From assembly GCA_029547025.1 (NCBI GenBank), contig JAKPQA010000175.1, positions 1 to 63,346 on the forward strand: a stretch of DNA of 63,346 bases. Reading direction: 5' to 3'. Below, piece by piece: positions 5,844-31,427 of the stretch. Numbering within the stretch: position 1 is the stretch's first letter; each line of letters opens with the position of its first letter. The position numbers and the translations under genes are program-made. The DNA is from Armatimonadota bacterium (GTDB lineage: Bacteria; Armatimonadota; Zipacnadia; UBA1398; JAKPQA01). Below the pieces are notes generated by a model. That model made no database searches and was not told the DNA's origin. It saw nothing but the letters and a program-made list of their open reading frames with translations.

Positions 5844-5876
5844 TCCACTTACCTCCCGCACTCCAGATGATCTTCA

Positions 5877-15003: not shown

Positions 15004-15023
15004 TTCTTCCGAGGTGTTTGGTG

Positions 15024-15776
15024 ATGGCCGACAGGTCGCGTGCTCCCTACTCGTTCGTGTGGTGGATCCTGGCTGTGTGTGTCGCCTCATGGGTGGTGCC
15101 AGTCCTTGCCGCTGACCAGGAGAGTCCCGTGGTACCGGTCATCGGCTCGAGCACTGAGCCGCCGCCTGGCGCCGTAGTGCTTTTCGACGGAACCAGCCTG
15201 GACAACTGGATCACCCGCGACGGCCGGCCGGCTCCATGGCCCATCGAGGACGGCGCCATGTGCAGTCGCGGTGGAGACATCGGCTGCGTCGAGACCTACA
15301 CCGATGCACTCATCCACATTGAGTTCCGAGTGCCCGACATGCCGAACGCGTCGGGACAGGGCAAGGGCAACAGCGGTATCTTCATCAACGGGCGCTACGA
15401 GCTCCAGGTGCTCGATAGCTTTGGCTTTGAGTCTCCGGGCAAGGGCGACTGCGGCGCTCTATACAGCGCGCACGCGCCCCTGGTCAACGCCTGCACGCCG
15501 CCGGGCCAGTGGCAGACCTTCGACATCGTGTTCCGCGCGGCCCGCCGGGACGATGCGGGGAACAAGGTCGAGAACGCGCGGTTCACCGTGTTCCAGAATG
15601 GCGTTCTCATCCACAACAACGTCGAGCTCTCCGGCGTCCTGCCTGGTGCCATCGACGACCGCGAGGGAGAGCCTGGCCCCCTGTTCCTGCAGGACCATGG
15701 CTGTGACGTCCGGTACCGCAACATCTGGCTGGTCCACCTGCCGGCAAAGGGTTCGGACACCTACGAGCCACATTAG
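15024..15776 (+). CDS. Secreted DUF1080 (3-keto-glycoside hydrolase-type) protein
   Basis: A 250-residue exported protein: signal peptide at 1-31 (hydrophobic run WWILAVCVASWVVPVLAA), then one DUF1080 beta-jelly-roll domain. The signatures VVLFDGTSLDNWI, NSGIFINGRYELQVLDSFG and the late NIWLVHL are typical. Members of this family hydrolyse 3-keto-disaccharides or act as concanavalin-like binding modules, often in glycan degraders. ATG 15024 is favoured by GAGGTG at 15011-15016; a GTG at 15021 is the alternative. It is transcribed convergently with the vWA gene ending at 15832. Confidence 0.85.
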   Translation: MADRSRAPYSFVWWILAVCVASWVVPVLAADQESPVVPVIGSSTEPPPGAVVLFDGTSLDNWITRDGRPAPWPIEDGAMCSRGGDIGCVETYTDALIHIEFRVPDMPNASGQGKGNSGIFINGRYELQVLDSFGFESPGKGDCGALYSAHAPLVNACTPPGQWQTFDIVFRAARRDDAGNKVENARFTVFQNGVLIHNNVELSGVLPGAIDDREGEPGPLFLQDHGCDVRYRNIWLVHLPAKGSDTYEPH

Positions 15777-15831: not shown

Positions 15832-16869
15832 CTAGCCTAGTGGCTGGTAGACCGTGCCCTCGAGCCCGCTCACGCCAATGCGCAGCCCTCGGGTTGACTT
15901 GGGTGCGCTCAGGGTCACTCGGCGCGGTACCGCATTATCGAGGCGCCACAGCTCCTGGCCGCGATCGTCGCACACGACGGCGCCGTCGAGCACCACGTCG
16001 TCGGCGCCCAGCAGGTCTTTCACGGTCAGCGCAGGGTTCAGCGCGTCCGGACTGCCGCGCACCTGCCACTCCACCGGTGGCATGCTGGCCTGACTGAGCT
16101 GTGACGTCAGCCCCGCATCGACGCCGTTGAGCGCGACGAGGAGAAACACGACCCGGGAGCGCCGCCCCACCGTCTCCCGCAGCCTCGCCGTCTGCTCGGC
16201 CACCTGCGGCACATCGTCGATGCTCGGGCCGTCGGTCAGGAACACGAACAGGTTGCCGCGTGTGGGGCGGCGGCGGTCCTTGAGTCCCGCGGCCGCCTGG
16301 GCGATGACCGGCGCCAGACAGGTGCGGGGCCCAGGCTGCCGCGGTCCGGACACCGCGGGTGGGGGTTCTTGGCTGGCGGAGGAGTAGCTTCCGAGGCTTT
16401 CCACCGCCTTCCCCGAGGGCCCACACGCCCAGTAGTAGGCCGTAGCCGGCTCGCCTCCACGCACGACCTCACTCAGCGTCCAGAGCCACTCCCGGACCAG
16501 TGGCCCCATGCTGTTCTCGGTCTCGCGCACGTACCCGCGCTTGCGCGCGTGGGAATAGGCCTTCGGGCCCAATGTCAAGATCGAGGGCCCGTCGGGTGGC
16601 ACAATCTCGTTGGCCCAGCCCCGGCTGCGGTACCTGGCGCCGACCTGAGGTGGAATTGATACGGCGAGCCCCATCCCATAGGCCGGCTTCATGCTCACGC
16701 TGCCGTCGAGCCCCAGAGACGCCTGCCAGCCCTCGATGTTCAGGTCGCCGGCGAACCACAGGGTCACGCGCCAGGAGTCATGGCCCTCGGCAACCTCCAG
16801 GCCATCGAGACAGACCTGGGCGTCGTGGTGCACCTCGATCCTGCGGGGTGCGGCCACTGTCTGCGACAC
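15832..16869 (-). CDS. vWA-domain protein 1 of the Hsp70-tubulin cassette
   Basis: A 345-residue soluble protein with a von Willebrand A fold. The complete MIDAS metal site can be read: D-x-S-x-S at 55-59 (LGLDGSVSM), the Thr at about 183 (PRTCLAP) and the Asp of FVFLTDGPSIDD at 213. About 50 N-terminal and 70 C-terminal residues flank the fold; the end (VTLSAPKSTRGLRIGVSGL) looks like extra beta strands. No signal peptide or membrane helix, so it is probably cytoplasmic. It follows a related vWA gene by 13 bases and is last in the minus arm of the cassette. GTG 16869 is used as start, but spacing to GAGGAG is short, so a GTG four codons later is possible. The binding partner is unknown. Confidence 0.75.
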   Translation of the reverse strand: MSQTVAAPRRIEVHHDAQVCLDGLEVAEGHDSWRVTLWFAGDLNIEGWQASLGLDGSVSMKPAYGMGLAVSIPPQVGARYRSRGWANEIVPPDGPSILTLGPKAYSHARKRGYVRETENSMGPLVREWLWTLSEVVRGGEPATAYYWACGPSGKAVESLGSYSSASQEPPPAVSGPRQPGPRTCLAPVIAQAAAGLKDRRRPTRGNLFVFLTDGPSIDDVPQVAEQTARLRETVGRRSRVVFLLVALNGVDAGLTSQLSQASMPPVEWQVRGSPDALNPALTVKDLLGADDVVLDGAVVCDDRGQELWRLDNAVPRRVTLSAPKSTRGLRIGVSGLEGTVYQPLG

Positions 16870-16882
16870 GCTCCTCTGCGGC

Positions 16883-17815
16883 CTAAACGACGGCCTGCCG
16901 GATCGGCTCGTTGGCCTCGATCTCGAGCCGGAAGCCTTCCGCTTCGGCCGAGAGCATGAAACTCAGGGCGGGTGGCACCTCCCGGGCATAGGTCCGCACG
17001 ACCCGGCCCGTGGGTTCCTCGACCACACGGCCCGAGACCGGGATGGGCGCCGCCAGGGCCGTGCTGACGAGTGCCGGCACGTCTTCGGGCTGCGGGGCGG
17101 CGTGGGCGGTCCACACTCGCACCGGTTGACCGCGGGGGTCAAGCCGGTCAGGCCGGAACAGGCTGTTCAGTTTTTCGATCTGCGGGAGTCCACCGCGCCC
17201 GGGGTCGAAGAGCCCAATCAGGATGAGACTGACCGGCCCCCGCTGCCCCCGGGCGATCATGTCGGCGAGAGCTTCGGAGTAGGGGGCGACTTGGGCGTGA
17301 TCGTCGATGTCGCCGTCGGTGACGATCACGGCGGCACAGCAGTCGGCGCCGCCCAACGGAGGAGCTGACCCGTCCGGACCCGGCTCGAGCAGCAGTGAGA
17401 GGGCCGGCATGAGGCGCGTACCGTTGCCCCAGGGCAGCTCCTCGGGACCCGCGAACGGCTCGACCGACGCCTCGTCTTCGGTGAGACTGCCGACGATCTC
17501 ACACCCCGCCCCGGTGGGACCCAGGGCGAAGTAGAGGCTGTGGCACCGCCCCTGGCACGAGAGGGACGCCAGATAGGCCGCCGTCACTCGTGCCATCTCA
17601 CCCATGCGATTGCGGAGCCGGATCTGCGGGTTCGGACCGATACCATAGAGGCGCCGGATCGAACGTGAGGCATCGAGGGCCAGCCCAAACTTGCCGCCCT
17701 CGGTGACGACATCCGTCGACCGGATGAACGCCAGAACCGCATGGCCCCCATCGGGCTCCGGGCTCACCAGCACCGACTGAAATGCGCTGTCGGGAGGCAG
17801 TGAGAGGCGTGTCAT
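16883..17815 (-). CDS. vWA-domain protein 2 of the Hsp70-tubulin cassette
   Basis: A 310-residue soluble protein with a vWA fold and complete MIDAS: D-A-S-R-S at 48-52 (FGLALDASRSI), Thr 133 (GNGTRLMPAL) and Asp 167 (AVIVTDGDIDDH). The C-terminal quarter (PTGRVVRTYAREVPPAL) resembles the extra beta-domain seen in stress-associated vWA proteins, which is inference. ATG 17815 has AAGGGA 7 bases upstream. It precedes vWA protein 1 and follows the membrane protein gene at 17886, all in one direction. A divalent metal held by the MIDAS would normally bind an acidic group of a partner protein. Confidence 0.77.
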   Translation of the reverse strand: MTRLSLPPDSAFQSVLVSPEPDGGHAVLAFIRSTDVVTEGGKFGLALDASRSIRRLYGIGPNPQIRLRNRMGEMARVTAAYLASLSCQGRCHSLYFALGPTGAGCEIVGSLTEDEASVEPFAGPEELPWGNGTRLMPALSLLLEPGPDGSAPPLGGADCCAAVIVTDGDIDDHAQVAPYSEALADMIARGQRGPVSLILIGLFDPGRGGLPQIEKLNSLFRPDRLDPRGQPVRVWTAHAAPQPEDVPALVSTALAAPIPVSGRVVEEPTGRVVRTYAREVPPALSFMLSAEAEGFRLEIEANEPIRQAVV

Positions 17816-17885
17816 GGGGCGATCCCTTGCCGATCCCGCGCTGTTCGCGCCCCCTGGTTCCCGGCGCCCCAGGCCCGGACGCCCT

Positions 17886-18665
17886 CTAGAACGTCTCGAG
17901 CTTGACCCCGAGGATCCACTCGACAGTCTCTTGGGGCAGGAAGTCGCGTCCGTTGACCTCTGCCGGGTCGGCGGGCAACTCGTGAACCCATTCGGAGCCT
18001 ACCTCGCCGGTCTTCGGCCCCAGTCTGCCACAGGTGACGGTCTTCGTTCCCCGCTTCCAGACCATGCCCACCCTCGAGGGGCTTCCGCTCTCCCGGTTCG
18101 AGGCGAAGATCGTGTTCGAGGCCTCATCTTTGGCGACCGTCCAGCCGGCGGCCTCGAGGACACCGCGAAGCTCGACCAGCTTCGTCTCGCCCGCCGCCAT
18201 GGTCTCCGCCATGAAGGGCCCGAACTTGCCCGCGACGCCTGACGGTGGGTTGCCCTCGCCCGCGCCCGAAGGTGCAGGCCGGGCTGGCGTCTCGCCGCCG
18301 GGTGCCGCGCCGCCCTCGGGCGGTGCTTCAGGAGTGGCCGGGCTCTGCTCGACAGTTGCCGGACCCGGCGGCGGAGCAACGGGCTGTTTCGATGCACCGG
18401 CCGCCGGCCCACCGGGCGCCTTCGGCATCGCCATCGTCTTCTCGCTTCCCGCGGCCACAGTCGTGCCCGCGGAGCCGTCGTCGCCCTTCCCTCGCAACAT
18501 GGGCAAGACCACGAAGTTCGCGAGCGCGGCAAGCCCGGCGACGACCACAACAATGATGATGATAGGGACCAGCGGGGACCGCTTGCGGGTCGACGCGGCT
18601 GGAAGCTGCTGCTTCCCCGCCTCGCTCTCGACTACGACGCCGGTCTTGTCCTTCTTCTTGCCCAT
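17886..18665 (-). CDS. Single-pass membrane protein with Pro/Ala-rich stalk
   Basis: A 259-residue bitopic protein. Seen: a charged, probably cytoplasmic N-terminus (MGKKKDKTG), a membrane helix at about 32-56 (PLVPIIIIVVVVAGLAALAN), a low-complexity Pro/Ala/Gly linker at 60-145, and a compact C-terminal domain of roughly 110 residues (from KFGPFMAETMAAGETK to the end) that should lie outside the membrane. I do not recognise the C-terminal domain. The gene sits between the exported Pro/Ala-rich protein and the vWA genes and probably supplies a membrane anchor or external sensor for the cassette. Confidence 0.72.
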   Translation of the reverse strand: MGKKKDKTGVVVESEAGKQQLPAASTRKRSPLVPIIIIVVVVAGLAALANFVVLPMLRGKGDDGSAGTTVAAGSEKTMAMPKAPGGPAAGASKQPVAPPPGPATVEQSPATPEAPPEGGAAPGGETPARPAPSGAGEGNPPSGVAGKFGPFMAETMAAGETKLVELRGVLEAAGWTVAKDEASNTIFASNRESGSPSRVGMVWKRGTKTVTCGRLGPKTGEVGSEWVHELPADPAEVNGRDFLPQETVEWILGVKLETF

Positions 18666-18726
18666 GGCGCGGATGCCGCCTCCTCGGGGCTCTCAGGCTT
18701 CCGGTCGCGCCGTGCGCCGGTGTCGT

Positions 18727-19173
18727 TCAGCTCCGCCAACAGGCCGCGCGGAAGCGCGCCTCATTCTGACGCTCCTCGGCCCGCTCGCTGGGCCAGTGCA
18801 GCGGGGGCCGGTTGTCATACATACCGATGCTCGGCACCACGACCGGCACGGGGCGCGGCTTGGCGAGCGGCACAACACGGCGCACCTGACCGGTGAGCGT
18901 CGGGTCCAGCGGCCGGCCAATCATGGGCACGCGCTGGGTTACCGACGGCCCCGCAGCCGCGGCAGCCGGAGGTGCTCCCGGTGGCTTCGCACCGGGAGCC
19001 GGAGCCGCGCCCAGAGCCGGCGGCGCCGCCGGCGGAGCGCCGGCACCCGCGGCCAGGCCCCCTGCCGCAGGGGGCCCGCCCTGGGCCAGCCCACGTGTGG
19101 GGGCCAACAGCGCGGCCGCAACCACGATCGCGCCCAGCGCGACGCAGCACCAGACGCCGAGAGTTGATCTCAC
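18727..19173 (-). CDS. Exported Pro/Ala/Gly-rich protein
   Basis: A 148-residue protein starting with a hydrophobic signal segment (GVWCCVALGAIVVAAALLA) and probable cleavage after LAQ near residue 31. A 45-residue stretch of almost only Pro, Ala and Gly follows, then a basic/proline segment (VPLAKPRPVPVVVPSIG) and a charged helix (SERAEERQNEARFRAACW). GTG 19173 is chosen because GGAGGGG lies 6 bases before it; the frame continues far upstream across the divergent region, which I treat as chance. It is first in the minus arm of the cassette. The function is unknown; the composition suggests an extended periplasmic linker. Confidence 0.6.
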   Translation of the reverse strand: MRSTLGVWCCVALGAIVVAAALLAPTRGLAQGGPPAAGGLAAGAGAPPAAPPALGAAPAPGAKPPGAPPAAAAAGPSVTQRVPMIGRPLDPTLTGQVRRVVPLAKPRPVPVVVPSIGMYDNRPPLHWPSERAEERQNEARFRAACWRS

Positions 19174-19432
19174 AGCAAACCCCTCCGAATCCCGCCCAAT
19201 CAGGATCTGCCACTTCTTCTTCGTCCCGGCCGGCCCCGCTACCTCCCGCCCGCCGGACGACCCGGGGACGCAGGACCCGCCGATGTCCGGCGCGAAGTCA
19301 GTGGTGAACACGGACGGTTCAGCCGCGACTGGCGCGCCCCGAGCACAACCGTCCTCGGCGTGTCGTGTGTTCGGAATCCGTGGGCGCAACCACGACGTGC
19401 CGAGCGCGTCTCGGGTCCCGAGGAGAGCTGAC
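19174..19432. promoter_or_regulatory. Divergent regulatory gap of the Hsp70-tubulin cassette
   Basis: This 259-base gap separates the two arms of the cassette, which diverge from GTG 19173 (minus) and GTG 19433 (plus). Promoters for both arms should lie here. I see no good TTGACA/TATAAT pair on either strand and no convincing palindrome, so the promoters may use another sigma factor. Both strands are open in long frames, but neither has a start signal in this gap. Confidence 0.45.
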
Positions 19433-22400
19433 GTGTCTTCGGATGGCAAGCGGCCGTTGAGAGGACGCCGATCCTTCGTGCACGAAGCGGCGCCCGCGCG
19501 TGACGGCCCGACTCCCTGCGTCGCGGGCACGTTCGACACCACCAATGCCTGGACATCTACGGAGTCCTCCTCGGAGTCGGCGATCATCCCGAGCACACCG
19601 TGTCAGGCCTGCCGGAGGTTCATACCGGCCGAGGCCCGAACGTTGGCGCTCGCCTACTGCCCCCTCTGCGGCTGGCCTGCGGGCCGGCTCCGATGGTCTG
19701 AGCCGCCGCCCACGGTCAGTGGCTCGCGCGGCGGCCGAGTGCCCCTGCGGCTCGACAACACGGGCCCCGTCGCAGTACCGTGCCGGGTCTACCTTGCCCC
19801 TCGCCGCGACGGCGTTCGCCTGCTGGACGCGGTCGGGGCGTCGGCCGGCGAATCCATTGATTGCACGAGCTTCGCGCGCGCCGTGCCTGCCGAAGCGCGT
19901 GGGTTCATAGTCGGTTATGTCCAGATCGATCCCGCCTCGGCCGCGGCGGCCGAGGACTACGTCGTCCGTGTCGAGATCGAGTCGCACGATGATTCGATCG
20001 GCTGTTCCGGCACGGTGGGGGGCGACCGCCTCTGGGACGTGGAAGGCTGGGCGGGCCGGATGGGTGCGCCCGGCCGGGAGCTGCCGCACCATTACCTGCC
20101 GGGCGATCCCCACGAGCTTCAGGCCGCCGCGCCGTACCGCCCGGCCTGGGTCGACCGAACGGAGCGGGTGTTCTGCACCTCGCGCCGGTGGGGGCTCGAC
20201 ATCCGTGTGTGCACTTCGGGACGCCTAGCCGTGGGCCGCCAGGTCCTCATCCTCAGTGTCGAAGGACGGCGCACGTCGCTGCGGCTCGACAACGAGGGTC
20301 ACGCAGACCTGGTGGTGGGCTGGTCAGTCGAGGGCTTCGCCGCCGAGGGGATGTCGGTCGCGTGGCGGCCACAAGATGGCACGGTCTCTGCCGTCGCCGC
20401 AGGACAGACCTTCGTCCTGACGGCCGGTGGCTCGGGCGAACTGGTCGTGGAGGTGGCCCCGAACGTCCTGCCGGCGAGTGGCACTCTGGTGCTCGATGCC
20501 AGGCCGTCTGTCCAACCGGTCACACGAATCCCCTTGGTTGTTCTGGCGCCGCAGCGTCCACCGGCTGTGCCCGACTGCGTGATCGGGATTGATCTGGGCA
20601 CCTCCAAGCTCTCCGCCTACGCCATGGGCCCCACCGATGCCGAGCCGATGCCTATCGCGTGGCCTGGGCAGAGCATCCCCGGCGACCGAAACGACTACGA
20701 TTCGCGCTGGGCGCCCTCTCGGCTCGAGTGGCGCGCCGGCGCGCCCGATCCCCTGGTGGGCTACGACGCGCGCCCGTGGCCCGAGCGCGACGCGGACCGG
20801 AAGTTCGTCACCGCGGTGGTCCGAGACATCAAGACACAGCTCCGCCGGGGGCGCCCCGACGCTCTCCCCGAGGCTCTGGCGCTGGTTGCCGGGGGAGAGC
20901 GAACAACCGAGTCCCTGGCCGCGACCGTGTCCGGATGGACGTGTCGGCGGATCGCGGCCTACCTCTTTCGCCGCCTGCTGGCCCGTGCCGGGCAGGCGCT
21001 GCGAAGCATGGAGCACCGTGCCCCCGGCGTGCAGACTGAGGCGGCCACTCTGTGCGCGAGTGTCCCCACCGCATCGGTGGGTGAGGGCGAACCCTACCAG
21101 GAGTGGATACGGGTGGCGGCTCAGGATGCGAAGCCTCGCGGCCCCATCCAGATGGTGCCGGAGCCCGAGTGTGCGGCCATGGACCTCCTGGCTTCTTGGG
21201 GCACCTACTTCCCCGACCGCCAGCACGAGCTGCAGCGCCCCACCCCGATGACGGTCATGGTCTTCGACTGCGGGGCGGGCACGACCGATGTGGCGCTCCT
21301 CGTGGTGGAGTTCTCAGGCGCCCGCCCTGCCATCGCCTCCCGGGCCTCCGCGGGGTACGAGTTCTCGGGTAACCTGGTGGACTATGCGCTGACGCGCGAG
21401 ATCGTGCAGAACTACTGGGCTCTGGCCGGGCCGGCGGATGCGTCCGGGTCGGCCCTGCGCGTTCCGGCTTTCGACGATCCCGCGCTGGGCAGCTACGAGA
21501 TCGAGAGGCCTGGCCCGAGGGGCGCCGGGGGTCGTGAGGCGCTGGTCTCCTTTCTGGCGCTCCAGGACACGGTCCGGCAGGCGAAGGAGCGGTGGCCCGC
21601 CTTGGGCCCGCGCTCGCTGTCCGTCCGCATCTACGAACGGGAGGTTACCCTCGATGATGAGGCCATCTCGCGGGTGATTCGCGAGCAGCTTCTCGGCGTT
21701 GTAGATGGGGGCTACAGCCCTCGCTCGTACTTCCGGGCGGGCCTTGGGCTGCGTTCGGTGGTCGATCAAGCCCTGGAGGAGCTTGGCCGCGAGGGGGACT
21801 ACCCACTCGAGTACATCATCCTCACCGGCGGAAGCAGTCAGCTCCGGGAGGTGCGCCAGGTGCTCGGCGAACGGTTTCTCGGGGCGGCGGATGATCCTCG
21901 GGTCCTGATGCCCGGCCCCGAGCACCTCCGGGTCAACGTGGCCAAGGGCGCGACGCGCGCGGCCACCTTCTTCGTGCCGGGGACCATGCCGCTCGACATC
22001 CGCGCACGCATGACCCTGCATTCCCCGGGCTTGCCCGACGAGGTCTGGGAGGCGCCCGTGTTCGCGACAGGTTCGCCTCCTCACGCGGTCGAGCTCCGGG
22101 GCAGCCCCGCTGAGGGCTGGACGCGAAACGGCGTCGATGCCCGCACCGGCAGGTTTGTCATCACCCAGGGCACCACGGCTCTGGTGGAGGTCCTGGCCGC
22201 CAATCCCCGGCCCGAGGCAGCCAGCGATGCGGCGTGGCGCCTTCACTCGCCGCCACTGGCGGTGACCTACCGGGCTCCCGATGGGCTACCGGCCGGCGCG
22301 CTTGCAGGCGTCGCTCTGGCTGTTCGGTATACGGCCCACAACGCAGATGATGGGCGGCTCGTACGTCGGATTCTGGCCTCCCTCTCGGTAGTGGCCGGCG

Positions 22401-22462
22401 GGGGCAGCGCCCGATCGAACGCGCTCGACTCCACGGGCGAGAGACTCATCATTGAGTTCTAG
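19433..22462 (+). CDS. Hsp70/actin-like ATPase with N-terminal zinc ribbon
   Basis: A 1009-residue protein unlike housekeeping DnaK. Seen in order: a polar N-terminus; a zinc ribbon with CxxC pairs at 57/60 (CQAC) and 76/79 (CPLC); about 300 residues of beta-rich sequence, possibly two Ig-like domains (VPLRLDNTGPVAVPCRVYL, TSLRLDNEGHADLVVGWSV); then the ATPase core with phosphate-1 IGIDLGTSK at 384-392, phosphate-2 MVFDCGAGTTDVALL from 609 and the adenosine motif YIILTGGSSQL from 794; and a C-terminal beta-rich part without DnaK's helical lid. GTG 19433 is chosen for its excellent ribosome site (GAGGAG, 7 bases). It is followed after 54 bases by a GrpE-like gene, a pairing that supports a true Hsp70-type nucleotide cycle. 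No J-domain gene is visible. Confidence 0.82.
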   Translation: MSSDGKRPLRGRRSFVHEAAPARDGPTPCVAGTFDTTNAWTSTESSSESAIIPSTPCQACRRFIPAEARTLALAYCPLCGWPAGRLRWSEPPPTVSGSRGGRVPLRLDNTGPVAVPCRVYLAPRRDGVRLLDAVGASAGESIDCTSFARAVPAEARGFIVGYVQIDPASAAAAEDYVVRVEIESHDDSIGCSGTVGGDRLWDVEGWAGRMGAPGRELPHHYLPGDPHELQAAAPYRPAWVDRTERVFCTSRRWGLDIRVCTSGRLAVGRQVLILSVEGRRTSLRLDNEGHADLVVGWSVEGFAAEGMSVAWRPQDGTVSAVAAGQTFVLTAGGSGELVVEVAPNVLPASGTLVLDARPSVQPVTRIPLVVLAPQRPPAVPDCVIGIDLGTSKLSAYAMGPTDAEPMPIAWPGQSIPGDRNDYDSRWAPSRLEWRAGAPDPLVGYDARPWPERDADRKFVTAVVRDIKTQLRRGRPDALPEALALVAGGERTTESLAATVSGWTCRRIAAYLFRRLLARAGQALRSMEHRAPGVQTEAATLCASVPTASVGEGEPYQEWIRVAAQDAKPRGPIQMVPEPECAAMDLLASWGTYFPDRQHELQRPTPMTVMVFDCGAGTTDVALLVVEFSGARPAIASRASAGYEFSGNLVDYALTREIVQNYWALAGPADASGSALRVPAFDDPALGSYEIERPGPRGAGGREALVSFLALQDTVRQAKERWPALGPRSLSVRIYEREVTLDDEAISRVIREQLLGVVDGGYSPRSYFRAGLGLRSVVDQALEELGREGDYPLEYIILTGGSSQLREVRQVLGERFLGAADDPRVLMPGPEHLRVNVAKGATRAATFFVPGTMPLDIRARMTLHSPGLPDEVWEAPVFATGSPPHAVELRGSPAEGWTRNGVDARTGRFVITQGTTALVEVLAANPRPEAASDAAWRLHSPPLAVTYRAPDGLPAGALAGVALAVRYTAHNADDGRLVRRILASLSVVAGGGSARSNALDSTGERLIIEF

Positions 22463-22516
22463 TCGAGAGTGCTTCCGCCGACAGGCAGGTGCGCCATCAC
22501 AGGGGGGTGATAGGCA

Positions 22517-23821
22517 GTGCGGCCCAGGCCCAGTCCGGCGGCCACTCTGACCGCCGTGTTGGTTATTCCCTCTCTTGTGGGAGTTCTGGCGATCCGCGCC
22601 CTGGCCCAGGGGGCACCGTCCGGCGCCAAACTTGCTGAGGCTGGGCCCGCCGCCATCGGGCCCAGCCTCTTGGAAATCGTCATAGTGCTCCTGGCCGGCC
22701 TCATCGTCCAGGGAGCGGCGGTGGTCGTCCTCCTGAAGCTGCAGACGACGAAGACGGCTGACCAGATGAGCGACCAGCTCAGGGAGTTGGCGGCTACGGC
22801 CGGGAAGCTGCAGTTGCTCATGAACCGGACCGAAGAGAGTCTGCGATTCCTCAACGCCAAGGTGGCTGAGGCCGTAGGCAAGGGCCTCCACGACGTCTGG
22901 CCCGACCTTGGGGGGCGCCAGCTCACACTGATCGCGGCCGAGCTGAAGGCGCGGGGCGAGGTGGCCGAGGCCACCTCGATGACGCTGCGGTCGGGGCTCG
23001 ATGCGTGCTGCGAGGCGGCCAGTCAAGCGGTGGACCGAGCGGCGGAGGCGACCGCCGCGGTCGCGGGCATCCGGACCGAGCTCGAGCAGGCTGCCGCCCG
23101 CGCGCGGGAGCTTCTCCAGGCCATTGCGGCCACTACCGAATCCGCCGATCATCGGTTGTCCTCCCTGGCCGAGGCGGTGGCTCACGACCCCTGGAGCCCC
23201 GCCAAGCCGGAGCTTCTGCACTCACTCCGGCGCGCGTGCGACGAGCCCGTAGATCCTCGCGAGGCCGCCGAGCTGGCCAGCGATGCCGTGAACGCGATGA
23301 GGGACGAGGGCCTCCTTCTGGCAGCCGACTGGGTGCAGGCCCACGGCCTGTCGCCGCTCTCTCACTTCATGGCGGTCCTGGGCCGTTCGGCCGCGGAGCT
23401 GTCGAGTCTGGCCGCCGAGCCGGAGGCCCCCGCGGCGGCTGCGTTGGCAGGACTGGCCGCGTGGCTTGCCGATGGTGCCGACGACGCGCTGGCTTCGCCC
23501 GGGCGTGCCGCCCCCCATGTTCCCGACCGCTATGGTGGCTTCCGGCTTCTGATCGAGGGCCTCGGCTCCCTGCGGTCCCGCTGCGTCGCGTACGTTCGCG
23601 AGCGTGAGGGATTCGCCGCCATCGGCCGCCAAGGCGAACGCCTGGATCCGTCGCGACATGAAGTCGCCGGCGGCCGTCCCACACCCAGCGTGTCTCTGCA
23701 CGATACCGTGGCCGAAGTCGTTCGTCCCGGACTCATGAAGGGCGAGCAGATCGTCTTCCCGGCCCGAGTGGTGGTCTTCTGCGACCCGAGCATTCCCAAC
23801 CCGTACACGTGGGCAGGATGA
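22517..23821 (+). CDS. Membrane-anchored coiled-coil protein with GrpE-like end
   Basis: A 434-residue protein. Seen: signal-like hydrophobic segment at 8-30, second membrane helix at 50-74 followed by basic residues (KLQTTKT), so the rest should be cytoplasmic; a long heptad-rich helical region from about 80 to 215; a second helical region; and a C-terminal 60 residues that read like GrpE. GrpE's F-D-P-x-x-H-E-A corresponds to LDPSRHEVAGG at 376 on. GrpE's final beta-domain (T-V-x-E-V-x-x-x-G then R-P-A-x-V-x-V) corresponds to DTVAEVVRPGLMKG and VFPARVVVF. GrpE is the Hsp70 nucleotide-exchange factor, and this gene directly follows an Hsp70-like gene. I infer a membrane-bound exchange factor. 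GTG 22517 has AGGGGGG 9 bases upstream. Confidence 0.75.
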   Translation: MRPRPSPAATLTAVLVIPSLVGVLAIRALAQGAPSGAKLAEAGPAAIGPSLLEIVIVLLAGLIVQGAAVVVLLKLQTTKTADQMSDQLRELAATAGKLQLLMNRTEESLRFLNAKVAEAVGKGLHDVWPDLGGRQLTLIAAELKARGEVAEATSMTLRSGLDACCEAASQAVDRAAEATAAVAGIRTELEQAAARARELLQAIAATTESADHRLSSLAEAVAHDPWSPAKPELLHSLRRACDEPVDPREAAELASDAVNAMRDEGLLLAADWVQAHGLSPLSHFMAVLGRSAAELSSLAAEPEAPAAAALAGLAAWLADGADDALASPGRAAPHVPDRYGGFRLLIEGLGSLRSRCVAYVREREGFAAIGRQGERLDPSRHEVAGGRPTPSVSLHDTVAEVVRPGLMKGEQIVFPARVVVFCDPSIPNPYTWAG

Positions 23822-23830
23822 GAGGCGCGG

Positions 23831-25651
23831 ATGGTTGGCGAGTCCTATTGCCCCCAGTGTCAGACGCGGCTCCCGGCCTCGGCCACGGCACCGATCCCGT
23901 GGCGCTACTGCCCGGTCTGTGGGGCACAGATCGCGTACGACTGCCCTCACCGGTGTGGGAAGCTGTTGCCTGTCCGTCTGCGGTACCGTTGCGCTGACGA
24001 CATCGGCGAGGGCTGTGGACTGCGTCTCCGGGCCTGCCTGAACCCGAGCTGCGCACGCTACTTCGCCCCTTCGGCTCCCACGGATGCCGCGGAGCTCGCC
24101 CGGGCGCTGGCCTGCGTGCAGTGCGGATCGCCATTGGGCGACTTCGATCAGACGTTCGATTGGCTCCAGATGGGCGTATCGCGTGACGCCTATCTGAGCG
24201 ATGGCGCGGCCCGGCGCCGTCTGTGGACGTCGGCGCCGGGGCCGCCCGAACTGCCCGTCGATGGCTCCGGGGTCACGCCCCGCGCTGAGTTGGGTGCCTG
24301 CGGGGCGCCTGCCCTCAGGTTGGGGCATCTGTTTGCCGGCTCCGAGAGCGGCCGGATAGTGCGATGGGACGTCACCTCGGTCGGCGTCGATCGGTCCGGA
24401 CTGGGCGACCCGTGGCTTCCGGGTGATCCAGACGACTTTGCCGGGGCGTCCTCCCGCCTCAGTCTCCGGGCTCCCATGCACACGTCCGAGCTCTACCTGC
24501 ACATGCGGGACGCGGGGGGCCGGCGGCTGTTCGTCATCGACCCCGCCACCGGAGCGCGCCTGCTCCGGTGGGATGTGCCAGGGTTCGACGACTACAGCGC
24601 CACAGTTCTCGGGCGCTGGCTCGCGGTTCTGGGGCTCCGGCGTGAGGGAGACTCGGTCACGGAGCACCTGGCCGTGTTCGACCTGCCGGCACTCATGGCC
24701 GAGGTGGGATCGAGCGCTGCGCGGACGGTTTCGGCGTCCCTTCGGTGCGCCAAGGCAGTGCGTGCCTGGACGGCCACAGACCGCCTCCACGAGTTCTACC
24801 GCTCGCGCGTCGAATGCTGGCCGCGCCGGGTATGCCGCGTCGGGGACTGCCTCTATGCCCTCTCGACGGCGAACCAGCTCTGGCGCCTGCGAACTGACGA
24901 CTCCACAGCCGACTGGGAGGACCTGGGCGGCTTCGGTCCCCCACCCGAGCATACCTCAACCACGCAACTGGCCCACTCGATGCACAAGGGTGTCCTGGTC
25001 ACCGCCTGGACCGTCCAACAGAGACTCCAGGTCGCGGTCCATCGGTGCGACGAGTCCAGGACGGGCATCGTCACTTTGCGGACTGGGCTCCCGCCCGAGG
25101 CGGCGCAACTCGCGATGGCTCTGGATGACGAGCGGCTCTACCTGTGCGACACGGCGGGCGTCGATCTGCTCTGGTGGACGCCGCTGGAGGACCTCAGGGA
25201 TCCTCGCTTTCGCGGACCGACATGCGGCGAAGTGCCATTGCTCGAGGGCGCTCAGTACCGCGTCGACTCCCTCTACCGGGCTGACACGCTCGACGAGTCG
25301 GGGCGCTGGCGGCCCCATGTGGTCGTGCACGTGCGCCGCGGCGGGGCGGCGCAGGCCGAGGGCACCATCGAAGCCGCCGCCGGGCTGGTGCTCGTTGATG
25401 CGCTTTTCGGCGGCCGGCGTGGGCGGATGCCGACTGCGCTCGAGGACGCGGGCCCGTGCCTCATTTCGCGCGCGGGCGACACCGAGGTCGGCAGGAGCCA
25501 CTGGCTGCCGGCGGAATCTGATCCTCGATGGCTCCTGCTGCGCGATCGCCGGCTCCTGTACTGCGGGTCCGTTGAGGCCGGGTCGCGGTGCGGGGCCGTC
25601 CTGGCTGCCTGGTCATCTCAGTGGGATGACGTGTGCCGTGCGCTGTGGTGA
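23831..25651 (+). CDS. Multi-zinc-ribbon protein with propeller-like body
   Basis: A 606-residue protein. The first 100 residues are Cys-rich with repeated zinc-ribbon elements: CPQC at 7-10, CPVC at 27-30, CPHRC at 38-42, C54/C62, CLNPSC at 69-74 and CVQC at 95-98. The remaining 500 residues have short repeating beta blocks (LFAGSESGRIVRWDV, LFVIDPATGARLLRWDV, LYALSTANQLWRL, LYLCDTAGVDLLWW) that look like blades of a PQQ/WD-type beta-propeller. No membrane segment. It follows the GrpE-like gene by 9 bases, and a GAGAGG ribosome site precedes the ATG. Zinc ribbon plus propeller suggests a protein-binding scaffold or client adaptor of the Hsp70-like ATPase, which is inference. Confidence 0.7.
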   Translation: MVGESYCPQCQTRLPASATAPIPWRYCPVCGAQIAYDCPHRCGKLLPVRLRYRCADDIGEGCGLRLRACLNPSCARYFAPSAPTDAAELARALACVQCGSPLGDFDQTFDWLQMGVSRDAYLSDGAARRRLWTSAPGPPELPVDGSGVTPRAELGACGAPALRLGHLFAGSESGRIVRWDVTSVGVDRSGLGDPWLPGDPDDFAGASSRLSLRAPMHTSELYLHMRDAGGRRLFVIDPATGARLLRWDVPGFDDYSATVLGRWLAVLGLRREGDSVTEHLAVFDLPALMAEVGSSAARTVSASLRCAKAVRAWTATDRLHEFYRSRVECWPRRVCRVGDCLYALSTANQLWRLRTDDSTADWEDLGGFGPPPEHTSTTQLAHSMHKGVLVTAWTVQQRLQVAVHRCDESRTGIVTLRTGLPPEAAQLAMALDDERLYLCDTAGVDLLWWTPLEDLRDPRFRGPTCGEVPLLEGAQYRVDSLYRADTLDESGRWRPHVVVHVRRGGAAQAEGTIEAAAGLVLVDALFGGRRGRMPTALEDAGPCLISRAGDTEVGRSHWLPAESDPRWLLLRDRRLLYCGSVEAGSRCGAVLAAWSSQWDDVCRALW

Positions 25652-25773
25652 GACGCGCACTCACCCGTCACATCGAGGGGGTCCGCCCGCTGGGGCGGGT
25701 GGGGGCGGTGTCCTCTTGTCCCCGTTGCATCGCTGGCTGTGGCTGTAGCCCTGCACTTGGGAGGATGAACCAC

Positions 25774-26145
25774 ATGGCTCAGGCGCTGACACGACTGCTG
25801 GCCTCGACCACGGTCCTCACATGGCTGGTCGGCTCATTGGCCGTCGCGTGGCTCCTGGCGCTCGTGTTCTTCTGGTTCGCCCTCAACGTATGGCCGCGCG
25901 GCACTCCCGGCGGCGCCGCGCGGACGGGCATCTTCCTCAGTACCCTGGCGTGGATGGTGTTCATCATCTTCTTCTGCCCGGCCGTCTCGGTGGAGGTCCA
26001 GTTCTGGAGCAAGGAAGGGGGCGAGCGTGCTCAGGCCATCGTATCCATGTCGTTCTTCAGCGCCGTTGGCGTCATCGTGCTGCTCCTGGCGGCCCTGACT
26101 CAGGTCCCCAGGGCGCCGCGCTACCGACATGAGGCGTTGCCCTGA
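25774..26145 (+). CDS. Small three-TM membrane protein
   Basis: A 123-residue integral membrane protein with hydrophobic helices at about 15-40 (VLTWLVGSLAVAWLLALVFF), 52-72 (GIFLSTLAWMVFIIFFCPAV) and 90-110 (FFSAVGVIVLLLAALT). A charged loop (EVQFWSKEGGERAQ) lies between the second and third. ATG 25774 is preferred because GGGAGG lies 9 bases before it; the ATG at 25765 abuts that site. It lies between the zinc-ribbon/propeller and the tubulin-like genes. I do not recognise the family; it may be a membrane dock. Confidence 0.65.
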   Translation: MAQALTRLLASTTVLTWLVGSLAVAWLLALVFFWFALNVWPRGTPGGAARTGIFLSTLAWMVFIIFFCPAVSVEVQFWSKEGGERAQAIVSMSFFSAVGVIVLLLAALTQVPRAPRYRHEALP

Positions 26146-26196
26146 GCCCGCGGTGCCGGCTCGAACGTGTAGGCTCGTGTGTGGGAGGAGACTCCT

Positions 26197-29100
26197 GTGG
26201 CTCAGTCAGCCAGTGACTCCCGGAACGTGATCCCACTCTACTTCAAGCCCACCCTGGTGGTCGGCCTGGGGGGCACCGGGGCGCAGGTCGTTCGCGAGCT
26301 GGCCGAGCGGCTCATCTGGCGCTATGGCTCCCTGACCGAAGCACCACACATCCAGTTCATGGTGATTGATACCGCGGAGAAGGACATCAAGTCGTTTGTC
26401 GAGGCTCTGTCGGAACTGCGGAACCAGTGCTACACGCTGAGCCCGGACGCTCAGGAGTTCGCCCGTGCCTCTGAGAACTTGCGGTATTGCGAGGTGATCG
26501 GCCTGCCCGAGTGGGGCGACGCCCGCATGTTCCGCCATGTGCAGGGCGTGGCCGAAGGCGCCGGCGGGATCCGCATGCTCGGTCGCTGGGCCTTTCTCTG
26601 GAGCCCGCAGTTCACGAACATCCTTGCCTCCGCCAAAGACGCCATTGTGGCGCTACGTGGCTTGAGCCGGGACCGGTTCGAGGAGCTGGACCGCGTTCGG
26701 ACTCTCCGAAGCCGCGGCCTCGTTCCGGCCCCGCAACTGGCAGGCCCGCCGCGCGTGTGGGTCATCGCCTCTGCCGGAGGCGGCACGGGGGCCGGCGCCT
26801 TCATCGATTTCGGCTACCTTCTGCGCCGTATTGCCCGTGAGATCGGCGGCGGGTTCAGCACTCAGGGGATGCTCGCCGTTGCCGCCCAGCAGGTGGTTGA
26901 CGACCAGAAGGTGCTCGCCAACACGGCCGCCATCCTCGATGAGCTCGACTATGCCCAGTCGGTGAAGTTTGCGCGCGTGCGCCACCGGGACCAGAAGTCC
27001 TTCGAGATCCTCCAGCCGCCCTACGACCGGGTCTTCGCCGTGTCCCCGGCCACCATGGACGGCCAACGGCTCGGCGAGAGCGGCAAAGATTCGTTTGAAC
27101 TGCTCTGCCGTCGGGTGGCCGCCTACGTCTATGTGAGCATCGACTCCATGGAGACCACCGAGGCCGAGGCACGCATCACCGACTTTGGCCCCGCCATGTC
27201 GGCCCCTGACGGCGATGGGCGCATGCCATTCCTGTACACCGTGGGCCTCAAGACGATCGAGTACCCGGCCGATGGTGTCCATCGCGCCGTCACGTCCCGT
27301 GTCATGCACCGACTGCTTGGCGAGTGGACCAAGCCATGGGCGCGCTCGGACCTATACCACGAGGATCAGAACGTGCTGATGCAACACCTCGGTCTTGGTG
27401 GCGGGATGTCCTACTTCCTCGGGGAGGAGGGTCGGCTCACGCGGATCGAGCCGGACGATCAGTTCGAGCCGCAGTTCTCCTCGGTCAATGACATGGCCCA
27501 CCGCGCCGCCTCCCTCGAGGAGGCCATTCGCATCGAGGTCGCTTCCGGGATTGACAGCTTCCGCGCCGACGAGCGCGGTGCCGTGATCCAGCGGTTGCTC
27601 GAGGCCGAGGGCAATGTCATGGCGTGGCTCGATGCGGCCTCGAGCGACCGCCTCCCCGGCCAGAAGCCGGCCATCGATCGTACCTCGGGCTGGATCCGCG
27701 ACTTCCTGGTACGCAAGCAGAAACGTTGCCAGGCCGCCTGTGAGGCGCAACTGCTTCGGTTCCTCGAGGAGGTCTTCTGGGACTTCCGCCGTGGGCCGGG
27801 CTATGTGCTCTCGCTGCTCGAGTGGGCGAAGGACGAGGCTCAGGCATACACGCAGGCACGCCTGCGCCGCGCCATCGAGGCCCCCCTGCCCCCCCCCAAC
27901 GACGAAATGCACATCCGTCGCGCATTCGAGGCCCGCGAGGATAGTATCACCCGCGCCCTGTTGTGCTTCACGGGTAGCGCCGAGCGCATTGTGAGTGGTG
28001 AGGCCCGCCGGGCTCAGGCCGAGCTCGAACGCTACTTCCTGGGCCGGCTGAGCCAGATGGCCGCGCAGACGAAGCTCAGCCTGATCGAGACGCTGGTCAC
28101 GGGCAGCCCGGGGATTGGTGGGCAGCCGTTTCTGGATCGACTCGGACGGAGGCTCGCCAACTTCCGCGAGTTCATGACTGGCTTCCTCAAGGGACACGAC
28201 GAGCGTGCCGCATCCATCACCGGCTCGGCCTACCAGCGCCTCACCCGCGACCTCGGCATCCAGGTCGCCGATGGGGACATCGCCGAGCTCGCCGACCGGT
28301 GCCTCGGGCACAAGGAGGGGCTGTCCCGCGAGGATGAGCTTCGCTACCGCGAGTCGCTCTTTGCGAACCTGGCCCGCGCCCACCTGGGAGCCGGCTCCAA
28401 TGATCCTCAGCCGTCACTGCGCCATCAGCTCTTCATCCAGGACCTCGCACGAGAGGGCGAGAGCGTATTTGACCCCTCGGTGTACCAGGGCAGCCTGCTG
28501 GATCTGCCGCGGTATTTCAGCGGTTTCGAGCAAGGTGTGCGGATTCTATTCGTGGGTCACCATGAGCCCCCCATCGCCGAGGACCTTCGCGGCCGCATTC
28601 CCATGGCACAGCTGGTCGAGAGGCTGAACGTCTACAACGTGAGCGCGCTCGACAAGTTCGAGGCGCAGGCCCGGCGGCTGCAGCGCGACTGGCAGCAGTA
28701 CCTGCGTGACGAGATCATGCGGAGCACGCCCATGCTGCCGCTGGACCTCAACCGCGAGTCGTACCGGTGCGTCGGCCGCCGGCCTCGTCGGGCCGGGTTC
28801 TGGGGGATCTGCCCGAACCCCGACCGCCTCGATCAGATTCGTGACCTCATGCGCCAGGTCATGTCCGATCCGGCCTTCTCGGGCATCGCCACGGCTTGCG
28901 ACCAGCAGTACTTCCCGGTCGTCTCTCCCACGTCCGAGTTCGATCGCTACCGGATGTCGTTCATCCTCGTCCATGGGGCGGTGACCACCGACATCATCTA
29001 CGGCTACTCGGTCGGCGATGGCGAGCGGCGCAAGAAGGTGCAGGTCGAGCCGTCCCCATACGCCCACGTCCTGCCTGAGCGCTTGCCGCCCCGCGACCTG

Positions 29101-29706
29101 ATGCGCCGCGCCGAGGAGGCCTATCTACTGGGCCGGATTCTGGGCATCCTGCGCGGGGAAGGCGCCCGCAACGAGGGCGTGTTTCCGGGGACGCAGACCC
29201 GGCCGCCCACGCGGGTGGATCTCCACCGTGACTTGATGATCGGCAGTGTGGACCTGATCCGCCGGGCCGAGGGACGGGGCCTGGAGTGCTTGGAGGAGGC
29301 CGTCCTCGCCCGCATCGAGGAGCTCGGGCCCGACTCCGACGCCCTCGCAGAGGTGCTCTTCCGGTCATTCGGCCAGTGGGAAGGCGTGGATTCGCCCCCC
29401 GAGGAACTCATCCGTAACCTGGGCATTGTGCGCGTGCGGGCCGCACTCGATGCTGAGGTGCCCGGTGAGGACGACGCCGATCTCGAGATCCAAGCCGTGC
29501 GCCATGTGGTGCTGCGATTCCTCGAACGCCGGAACCTGCTCCGCGATCGCATCGAGGCCATGTCTCGGCCCGCCATCTCCAATGTGCGGGAGGAGTACAT
29601 CGACGGCGCCACCCAGTGGGTGTGCACGACCTGCGGCGCCCCATACCACCGGCGCCGACCGCTCTACGGCGACGTGTGTGAGAACTGCAACACCATGTTT
29701 CACTAG
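26197..29706 (+). CDS. Tubulin-like GTPase with C-terminal zinc ribbon
   Basis: A 1169-residue protein whose first 350 or so residues match the bacterial tubulin-like (Tubulin_2) family. The glycine-rich T1 loop is LVVGLGGTGAQVV at about 20-32, and the tubulin/FtsZ signature GGGTGAG stands at 194-200 in ASAGGGTGAGAFIDFG. About 750 mostly helical residues follow (LRRAIEAPLPPPNDEMHIRR, FLRDRIEAMS-like segments), and a zinc ribbon closes the protein: C1143, C1146, C1161, C1164 (CTTC and CENC). It is three times longer than FtsZ and lacks its cell-division context. GTG 26197 is chosen because GGAGGA precedes it at good spacing. It is the core of the plus arm; whether it polymerises is unknown. 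Confidence 0.82.
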   Translation: MAQSASDSRNVIPLYFKPTLVVGLGGTGAQVVRELAERLIWRYGSLTEAPHIQFMVIDTAEKDIKSFVEALSELRNQCYTLSPDAQEFARASENLRYCEVIGLPEWGDARMFRHVQGVAEGAGGIRMLGRWAFLWSPQFTNILASAKDAIVALRGLSRDRFEELDRVRTLRSRGLVPAPQLAGPPRVWVIASAGGGTGAGAFIDFGYLLRRIAREIGGGFSTQGMLAVAAQQVVDDQKVLANTAAILDELDYAQSVKFARVRHRDQKSFEILQPPYDRVFAVSPATMDGQRLGESGKDSFELLCRRVAAYVYVSIDSMETTEAEARITDFGPAMSAPDGDGRMPFLYTVGLKTIEYPADGVHRAVTSRVMHRLLGEWTKPWARSDLYHEDQNVLMQHLGLGGGMSYFLGEEGRLTRIEPDDQFEPQFSSVNDMAHRAASLEEAIRIEVASGIDSFRADERGAVIQRLLEAEGNVMAWLDAASSDRLPGQKPAIDRTSGWIRDFLVRKQKRCQAACEAQLLRFLEEVFWDFRRGPGYVLSLLEWAKDEAQAYTQARLRRAIEAPLPPPNDEMHIRRAFEAREDSITRALLCFTGSAERIVSGEARRAQAELERYFLGRLSQMAAQTKLSLIETLVTGSPGIGGQPFLDRLGRRLANFREFMTGFLKGHDERAASITGSAYQRLTRDLGIQVADGDIAELADRCLGHKEGLSREDELRYRESLFANLARAHLGAGSNDPQPSLRHQLFIQDLAREGESVFDPSVYQGSLLDLPRYFSGFEQGVRILFVGHHEPPIAEDLRGRIPMAQLVERLNVYNVSALDKFEAQARRLQRDWQQYLRDEIMRSTPMLPLDLNRESYRCVGRRPRRAGFWGICPNPDRLDQIRDLMRQVMSDPAFSGIATACDQQYFPVVSPTSEFDRYRMSFILVHGAVTTDIIYGYSVGDGERRKKVQVEPSPYAHVLPERLPPRDLMRRAEEAYLLGRILGILRGEGARNEGVFPGTQTRPPTRVDLHRDLMIGSVDLIRRAEGRGLECLEEAVLARIEELGPDSDALAEVLFRSFGQWEGVDSPPEELIRNLGIVRVRAALDAEVPGEDDADLEIQAVRHVVLRFLERRNLLRDRIEAMSRPAISNVREEYIDGATQWVCTTCGAPYHRRRPLYGDVCENCNTMFH

Positions 29707-29729
29707 TGGTCCAGCACCGAGGAGGCAAC

Positions 29730-31427
29730 GTGCAGGGCGTGGACAGGAGCCGGAAGGCGGTCACGAGCACGGCCAGGCCTGTGGCCGCGGTGCTGCTCCT
29801 CACCGTGGCAGGCGTCTGCCTGGCCGCGCTCGTCGACGCACCCAACACCGATGGCAGAGCGGCCGGCTCTCCCACGCTGTGGAACATCTACACCCACGAG
29901 GTGGCCGAGCCCATTCTGGGTGCCGTCAGCGGCCTGCGCGACCACCCGGCTCACTTCTTCATCGCATTCGACTGCTCCACCAGCTTCGCCGTCGACTACC
30001 GCGAGGAGCTCCACGAGTTCGTCTACGCCATGTCGGCCTGGATGGTCGCTCCCGCGCAGGTCGCCGGCCAGTCGCCGCGCTCGCCCTTTTTCGCCGAGGG
30101 CGACCGGCTCACGGCCGCCATCATGGGGGCCGCCAGGCGTGAGCTGACCGGTGCCCACTCCGCGGCGATGCCGTTCTCGCTCGACCCCGAGGTCCGCAGC
30201 AGCTGGTTGGCCATTCTTAACCGTCGACCTAACGACGCCTCGGGGAAGATGGCACCACTCCCCCGCACCTGGCTCACGGGCACCCAAATGGGTCTCCTAC
30301 GCATGGCCAAGCGCGCCGCCGATCAGGGCGAGTTTGCCGTCGCCATCATTTTCACTGATCTCACCGAAGACGACCCCCGTGTGCCGGTCAACGAGAAGGC
30401 CATGGGCGAGTTGCTCGGCGCGCTGAACCCTGGCCTGCGCGAGTGGGTTCGCATCCCGGCCCCGAGTCTCCGGGCCACGAAGGCTCAGTCGGTGACACTC
30501 AACACCTTCGTGGCGTACTCGCCCCTTCCGGCGGATGCGCCTGAGCTGGCTCAACCCCGGTTCGCCGAACCCGACCCACTTGAGTGGGCAGCTAGCCCGC
30601 CCGAGCCTTGCCGGCTCGAGGGGCATGAGGGGGCGTCGAGGGAGCTCGTCCTCCGCCTCAAGCCCCACTGCTTCGCTGGCCAGGAGACCACGAGGTTCCG
30701 GCTCATCTGCGACCAGACCCACTCCCTGCCGCTGAAGCGCTCCGATGCCAACCTGGTCGATGGCATCCTCGAGTTCCGGCTGCCATGGGAGTCAGTCATC
30801 GCCCACCACGAGCCGTCGGCGGCGCCAGGGGGCGAAGCGGCACCGCCGAAGGTCACCGAGACCATGTCCTTTCGGGTGGAGCCGGTTCTCGACGGATATG
30901 ACCTCTCGCAGATGGCGCCGCTCTCAACTCCCGTCCGCAAGGTGATCGTTCCGGTGCCTCCCGTGCCCTTCCCGTTCGGGCTGCTTGCCATCGTCGGCCT
31001 GGCTGTCGTCACTGTCTCGTTGCTGACGCTGCGCCGCCGGGTGGAGTACGGGTGCGTGCGCGTGGGGGAAGTGACCACGGCCCCGGCAGCCGCATTGGCC
31101 TCGCTCGTGCTGGGGCCCAAGGAAGCGGGGCGCGCTGTGGGGCCGGCCGTGGCCGTGCACAATCAGTTCCACTTCGCCACACGGGTCCAGCCCCAGCAGG
31201 GCTTCGTGCTCGACCTGCGCGGCGCCCCGCAGGAGGAGGGCTGCTATCTGCTGTCCACCGGTACCGACTACACCTTCGTCGCCCGAATGAACAGCGACCC
31301 GCGCGTGGCCTATGACTATACGCTCCGAATCGTCCCGCTCCACGTGAACAACAAGGCCAAGTTCATCCTGACAGCCATCGGCATCGCACTCATCGCCCTC
31401 GGCCTCGCCCTCGCCGGCCGGGGCTAA
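29730..31427 (+). CDS. Membrane-anchored vWA-like protein 3
   Basis: A 565-residue protein. Seen: an N-terminal membrane segment (PVAAVLLLTVAGVCLAALV) that is either an anchor or signal; a vWA-like domain with D81-C-S83-T-S85 (FFIAFDCSTSF), Thr 185 (LTGTQMGL) and Asp 210 (IIFTDLTEDD), so the MIDAS is intact; a beta-rich region; a membrane helix near 422-443 (FGLLAIVGLAVVTVSLLTL); a domain of about 100 residues; and a last membrane helix at the C-terminus (ILTAIGIALIALGLALAG). The vWA domain therefore probably faces outward. GTG 29730 follows GAGGAGG; another GTG at 29706 overlaps the tubulin-like stop. It is last in the plus arm of the cassette. Confidence 0.7.
   Translation: MQGVDRSRKAVTSTARPVAAVLLLTVAGVCLAALVDAPNTDGRAAGSPTLWNIYTHEVAEPILGAVSGLRDHPAHFFIAFDCSTSFAVDYREELHEFVYAMSAWMVAPAQVAGQSPRSPFFAEGDRLTAAIMGAARRELTGAHSAAMPFSLDPEVRSSWLAILNRRPNDASGKMAPLPRTWLTGTQMGLLRMAKRAADQGEFAVAIIFTDLTEDDPRVPVNEKAMGELLGALNPGLREWVRIPAPSLRATKAQSVTLNTFVAYSPLPADAPELAQPRFAEPDPLEWAASPPEPCRLEGHEGASRELVLRLKPHCFAGQETTRFRLICDQTHSLPLKRSDANLVDGILEFRLPWESVIAHHEPSAAPGGEAAPPKVTETMSFRVEPVLDGYDLSQMAPLSTPVRKVIVPVPPVPFPFGLLAIVGLAVVTVSLLTLRRRVEYGCVRVGEVTTAPAAALASLVLGPKEAGRAVGPAVAVHNQFHFATRVQPQQGFVLDLRGAPQEEGCYLLSTGTDYTFVARMNSDPRVAYDYTLRIVPLHVNNKAKFILTAIGIALIALGLALAGRG

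Follow-up and report, generated by a model that had tools for sequence, protein, structure and literature searches.

An Hsp70-type ATPase and a Tubulin_2 GTPase in a conserved membrane-associated gene cassette of Armatimonadota

Ten genes in two divergent arms lie within contig JAKPQA010000175.1 (assembly GCA_029547025.1) of an Armatimonadota bacterium, and the question this locus raises is whether they encode one machine and, if so, of what kind. An earlier note, made from the sequence alone, had read all ten as a single membrane-associated machine using both ATP and GTP. The window analysed here is that whole contig of 63,346 nucleotides (C298 in our numbering), which belongs to a 6.3 Mb draft genome, denoted G000, with a completeness of 96%. 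All ten open reading frames (ORFs) were present where the note had placed them, with third-position GC contents of 0.79-0.85, which are coding-like, and with the arms diverging from an intergenic region of ~300 bp. The plus-strand arm, at ~19.5-31.4 kb, is a conserved cassette encoding an Hsp70, a GrpE-like protein, a zinc-ribbon/propeller protein, a small transmembrane (TM) protein, a Tubulin_2 GTPase (Tub2) and a membrane vWA protein (vWA3), and its architecture as one conserved, co-inherited unit is well supported. As an inherited unit, the single machine of the earlier note is thus supported only in part, namely for the plus arm and not for the minus arm, which appears in no other Tub2 locus scanned.

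The evidence for the plus arm comes from 291 Armatimonadota-group genomes, with relatives including Armatimonadetes bacterium, Chthonomonas and Abditibacteriales, which we searched with Tub2; the neighbourhoods of most positives were then scanned with profiles built from relatives. Tub2 was found in 77 of the 291 genomes. The cassette-type Hsp70, defined by a match to an N-terminal part missing in ordinary DnaK or by a score above ~111 bits, was found in 30 genomes from 11 families. While 28 of these 30 genomes encode Tub2, only 49 of the 261 others do (Fisher p=2.7e-16), the genomes compared being related and only the best few Hsp70 candidates per genome having been scored. The association held within families f18 (p=4e-4) and f25 (p=3e-6) and took the same direction inside f8, f17, f18 and f25. 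Tree distances of Tub2 were correlated with those of Hsp70 (r=0.90), the propeller protein (0.85) and the vWA protein (0.76; all Mantel p=5e-4), partly due to shared species history.

The plus-arm genes were found together within 10 kb in many genomes. The order Hsp70-GrpE-propeller-vWA-TM-Tub2-trypsin recurs (loci L032 and L033; genomes G253 and G255), as does a rearranged but complete set (L042 and L076); genomes G040 and G031 have the order propeller-vWA-TM-Tub2-trypsin-Hsp70-GrpE, and genome G025 has Hsp70-propeller-vWA-Tub2-MotA-OmpA. Tub2 loci with Hsp70 contained the propeller gene in 14 of 19 cases and the membrane vWA gene likewise in 14; for long Tub2 loci without Hsp70, the counts were 3 and 5 of 20. 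Outside the phylum, a Bacteroidota locus (L068) combines Tub2 and trypsin with Hsp70 and with vWA-like and small TM genes, and in a Clostridia locus (L062) the order is TM-Tub2-propeller-vWA-vWA-MotA-OmpA, a cassette-type Hsp70 being encoded on a different contig. The cassette proteins are strongly diverged, at 20-30% identity, and this is the only point that would speak for a chance adjacency of unrelated genes; considering the co-occurrence and the synteny repeated in many families, we rejected that explanation for the plus arm as extremely improbable. The co-occurrence test proposed in the earlier note itself thus came out in favour of the plus arm, by proximity, association and correlated trees, but not of the minus arm.

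The ten genes of the locus are as follows.

15832-16869, minus strand: vWA1, a cytosolic vWA-like protein with DGSVS and TDG motifs that resemble a metal ion-dependent adhesion site (MIDAS) by eye
16883-17815, minus strand: vWA2, vWA-like by its DASRS and TDG motifs only
17886-18665, minus strand: single-pass membrane protein, TM segment at residues 35-53, with a Gly/Pro/Ala linker and a small C-terminal domain
18727-19173, minus strand: exported Pro/Ala/Gly-rich protein, from its sequence and a hydrophobic segment
19478-22462, plus strand: Hsp70-type ATPase with an N-terminal zinc ribbon and a beta-rich region, from a family profile against DnaK; start uncertain
22517-23821, plus strand: membrane-anchored coiled-coil protein with a GrpE-like C-terminal head (NCBIfam GrpE, 4.4e-7)
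23831-25651, plus strand: zinc-ribbon and beta-propeller-like protein (DZR, 0.005; PQQ_2 match of a relative and BamB match of the family profile)
25765-26145, plus strand: small protein with three hydrophobic segments, predicted to be TM, directly upstream of Tub2, a position kept in relatives
26179-29706, plus strand: Tub2, a Tubulin_2 (FtsZl1-type) GTPase with a long helical region and a C-terminal zinc ribbon (PF13809, 152 bits)
29706-31427, plus strand: vWA3, a membrane vWA protein with N-terminal, middle and C-terminal TM segments and the MIDAS motif DCSTS, from a profile against ITIH1, its TM segments and its relatives

Taken alone, the Hsp70 protein of the window is weak in Pfam. The cassette Hsp70 proteins of the relatives G253 and G040 pass PF00012 (HSP70, ~50 bits), and a 12-member family profile matches DnaK at 1.8e-28 across the ATPase domain. 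In the family alignment, D329, G331, T332, K409, P487, E519, D554, D561, G741 and G742 are invariant, which we take to correspond to the phosphate 1 motif, the catalytic Lys, the allosteric Pro, the catalytic Glu, the phosphate 2 motif and the adenosine motif. The ATPase domain of the family has the phosphate and adenosine motifs together with the catalytic Lys, Glu and Asp of an Hsp70. Only ~125-167 residues follow this domain, beta-like by eye, and because ~167 residues remain, the protein probably lacks a full lidded substrate domain. Its homology begins near 19600 with no in-frame ATG nearby, so GTG 19478 is a likely but uncertain start, chosen as a guess. Since an ordinary DnaK is encoded elsewhere in the genome (contig C153), the cassette Hsp70 is an extra paralogue. 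An AlphaFold model of the Hsp70 built from four sequences had a pLDDT of 35 and was set aside.

The same data bear on whether the Hsp70-like protein could instead be an actin-like filament lying beside a tubulin filament, in a two-polymer cytoskeleton. Such an arrangement would agree with the weak similarity of the window protein to MreB and BeeR and with the probable lack of a full lidded substrate-binding domain, but the family profile matches DnaK strongly, conservation of K409, P487 and E519 is as expected for the catalysis and allostery of an Hsp70, and a GrpE-like partner is encoded next to it, so that we regard a second polymer as improbable.

The GrpE-like protein matches GrpE in NCBIfam, below the curated cut-off, and in Pfam (2e-4), and has two N-terminal hydrophobic segments by hydropathy. 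A relative (L033:2219-2998) scores 1.4e-5, just below the gathering cut-off, and a weak GrpE match (E=0.85) was obtained in the PDB. For the zinc-ribbon/propeller protein, the DZR match of the window protein comes from Pfam; a relative matches PQQ_2 at 5.7e-6, just below the cut-off, and the family profile matches BamB at 8e-4. Hydropathy confirmed three TM segments in the small protein, which starts at ATG 25765.

Tub2 gave the sole strong Pfam call among the window proteins taken alone. The GGGTGAG loop is at residues 200-206, the core residues are invariant in relatives, and a C-terminal CxxC...CxxC ribbon is visible. Its profile found no match among PDB sequences, whereas a fold search did: the AlphaFold model has a GTPase core with pLDDT mostly ~70-90, and Foldseek matched it best to CetZ2 (E=1.1e-6), followed by FtsZ, tubulin and TubZ. 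The vWA3 family profile matches the vWA region of ITIH1 at 1.3e-4, and the DCSTS and TD motifs of a MIDAS are present. Proteins related to vWA3 have N-termini resembling a lipobox, and no export signal was seen in Tub2, the Hsp70 or the propeller protein. The Hsp70, zinc-ribbon tubulin and three-TM assignments of the earlier note were thus confirmed, as was its single-pass protein in the minus arm, and its membrane-anchored GrpE-like and propeller-like calls were supported.

In contrast, its three vWA proteins with intact MIDAS sites were upheld by profile and motif for vWA3, but by motif only for vWA1 and vWA2. These two are paralogous to each other (E=1.9e-6) and matched no vWA profile, so that their vWA call rests on the motifs. 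A TerF-type vWA assignment was rejected, the profile match having been on a different contig and not in these genes. The single-pass protein had a weak Cu_amine_oxidN1 match (0.0028, below the cut-off), and the exported protein matched no family. The latter is present as the note had described, but is probably shorter: because GGAGG stands 8 nt upstream of GTG 19173, this codon is most likely its start, giving 148 residues rather than 289.

Whether the minus arm belongs to the system or is an unrelated divergent neighbour of a self-sufficient plus arm is, in our judgement, evenly balanced. All four minus-arm proteins (vWA1, vWA2, the single-pass and the exported protein) are absent from every other Tub2 locus scanned, vWA1 and vWA2 have no homologue among the 291 phylum genomes, and vWA2 matched nothing in plasmids or among PDB sequences. 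However, two vWA-like proteins here adjoin a vWA-containing system, the arms share the short divergent intergenic region in a neighbourhood that is otherwise metabolic, and systems of this sort often contain orphan parts that evolve quickly.

When compared with described systems, the cassette overlaps two sets of predictions. Makarova and Koonin (2010) found FtsZl1 (Tubulin_2) in neighbourhoods with vWA, GTPase, kinase and OmpA genes and suggested a role in membrane remodelling (PMC2875224). The cassette shares with these systems a Tubulin_2 protein with a helical C-terminal region, a MIDAS-positive vWA protein, membrane proteins and, in some relatives, OmpA (PMC2875224); in the window as in relatives, an N-terminal FtsZ/tubulin domain with the GGGTGxG loop is encoded near a vWA gene. 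In contrast to them, it has no P-loop GTPase or kinase, adds the Hsp70, its GrpE-like partner and the zinc-ribbon propeller, and has relatives carrying an HtrA-like protease and MotA. In the DO-GTPase/GAP1-N2 conflict systems predicted by Kaur et al. (2020), tubulin/vWA and Hsp70/GrpE appear as two distinct themes, which those authors called non-overlapping (PMC7159879). Both themes, near membranes, recur in the cassette, but here they are united, and Armatimonadota are unmentioned in that paper. DO-GTPase2 (PF19993) was absent from G000 and from 23 of the 27 other cassette genomes, and the matches in the remaining 4 of 28 were on contigs other than that of the cassette. Since a Clostridiales locus (L066), used as a positive control, has DO-GTPase2 beside Tub2, the test can detect this gene. 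No GAP1 Pfam match was seen in the ten window proteins at E up to 1, and with both DO-GTPase and GAP1 missing, membership of the DO-GTPase systems was rejected.

As to DnaK and GrpE themselves, the cassette shares the motifs of the ATPase domain and, putatively, a GrpE-like head for nucleotide exchange, but differs in its N-terminal zinc ribbon, beta-rich region, short C-terminal region, membrane anchoring of the GrpE-like protein and lack of DnaJ. Literature searches found neither a paper on this gene combination nor, for the years after Tubulin_2 proteins were described in 2010, any function established for them by experiment. The earlier note's statement that no named system has this content thus holds for the combination but not for the kind, which is predicted computationally in the two papers, uncharacterised and not wholly new. 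What is new is the DO-GTPase-free union of the two themes, a zinc-ribbon Hsp70 family tied to Tub2 by strong statistics, the HtrA-like and MotA/OmpA modules that relatives add, and the orphan arm with its vWA pair in G000.

In relatives, one or the other of these modules, the HtrA-like trypsin protease or the MotA/OmpA pair, is attached next to Tub2. The earlier note saw no effector nuclease, and the lack of an effector is true of the window but not of its relatives. The protease (Trypsin_2, 88.8 bits) shows the H, D and S motifs and has one N-terminal TM segment, in a DegS/HtrA-like layout. MotA_ExbB and/or OmpA were matched in L044, L099, L091 and L062, and by profile in L114; the pairs consist of a MotA-like protein with a coiled-coil tail and an OmpA/MotB-like protein (L091:10848-13612, L044:4768-7039, L099:12596-14879, L114:13704-16090 and L062:8597-10618). 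The long coiled-coil tail and a ZorB-like OmpA protein (L091, ZorB1 at 84 bits) recall Zorya, and a link between tubulin systems and Zorya-type motors is possible. Unlike Zorya, the window has no ZorAB, ZorC and ZorD were not seen, and the neighbours are tubulin, vWA and Hsp70.

From these features we suggest, with about even confidence, that the plus arm encodes one membrane-associated machine for envelope sensing and assembly, gated by Hsp70 and with interchangeable outputs. Because relatives carry lipobox-like N-termini, the vWA domain of the membrane protein, following an N-terminal signal or lipobox and then a TM segment, would lie outside the cytoplasm and bind a ligand through its MIDAS metal. 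The signal would pass to Tub2, which the small TM protein would tether to the membrane and which would assemble in a GTP-dependent manner. The Hsp70 may set the threshold for Tub2 assembly or dismantling, assisted by the zinc-ribbon/propeller adaptors, with the anchored GrpE-like protein as its nucleotide exchange factor. Assembled Tub2 might then license an envelope output, namely a protease or an ion-driven channel; since no output gene is recognisable in the G000 locus, the output there could be supplied by a gene elsewhere in the genome or by the minus arm particular to this lineage.

Several observations weigh against this reading. Of the 28 genomes positive for both Hsp70 and Tub2, 11 have the two genes on separate contigs, some of which are long, and no more than 8 of the 19 Tub2 loci with Hsp70 gave a GrpE match. 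The window locus has no trypsin-like protease or MotA/OmpA gene, and low-confidence AlphaFold models leave the Hsp70 C-terminus and the Tub2 helical region undefined. PADLOC reported no defence system in the window, only a weak Hsp70-domain match, and because the flanking genes are metabolic, the cassette is not in a defence island.

As for its role, we tentatively favour envelope surveillance or a conflict response over housekeeping shape control, at somewhat less than even confidence. A housekeeping role in membrane remodelling, such as vesicle formation or shape, is the less probable alternative, although Makarova and Koonin proposed remodelling from the same core genes (PMC2875224) and the metabolic flanks, the absence of a nuclease or classical toxin and the negative PADLOC result would suit it. 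The patchy distribution (30/291, and absence from the two same-order genomes), the swappable protease or MotA/OmpA neighbours and the low identity fit conflict systems better. Going further, the cassette might represent an undescribed class, a DO-GTPase-free, Hsp70-gated envelope tubulin machine in which a chaperone cycle controls the tubulin and the output is an HtrA-like protease or a ZorAB-like pair, replaced in G000 by the vWA-pair arm; we consider this rather unlikely at present. Regardless of class, the cassette joins the tubulin/vWA and Hsp70/GrpE predictions in one locus that lacks the GTPase regarded as their core, and ties tubulin-like proteins to HtrA-like proteases and Zorya-type MotA/OmpA pairs. 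With ATPase, GTPase and protease as enzymatic partners in a compact gene set that recurs, it makes the role of Tubulin_2 directly testable.

The genes flanking the locus encode a solute-binding protein of a peptide-type ABC transporter and a 3-keto-disaccharide hydrolase (12840-15776) on one side and a GH36/melibiase (31513-33510), of a family with 12 copies in G000, on the other. Genome G250 has a 68%-identical GH36 copy without the cassette beside it; with this flank in common but nothing else around it, the empty-site comparison can demonstrate no insertion boundary. A promoter and terminator scan and an Rfam search of the window found nothing.

Tub2 also occurs in other settings. Two loci (L115:7395-11322 and L116:6645-10405) have cassette-type Hsp70 and GrpE-like genes with no Tub2 nearby, the Tub2 of those genomes being on another contig. 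A Prevotella locus (L065:9983-16038) has a vWA-like gene, Tub2 and a 1076-aa protein, and a Tub2 neighbourhood in genome G080 (L045) has Hsp70 and vWA only; these differing partners suggest that several Tub2 subsystems exist. In a group of phylum genomes (L102-L108), two Tub2-like genes lie next to each other and the cassette partners are all absent. Among plasmids, Tub2 matched only in three from Deinococcus, at <30% identity. In one of them, Deinococcus radiophilus plasmid pRadio2 (L118:9986-14279), the Tubulin_2 gene is apparently interrupted by an IS630 transposase, leaving an 836-aa part and a 246-aa remnant with a Tub2 profile match of its own; a MotA/OmpA-like pair follows downstream. 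Elsewhere in the window, 3855-4580 and 5124-5861 encode two near-identical prepilin-like proteins, close together and of an expanded pseudopilin type.

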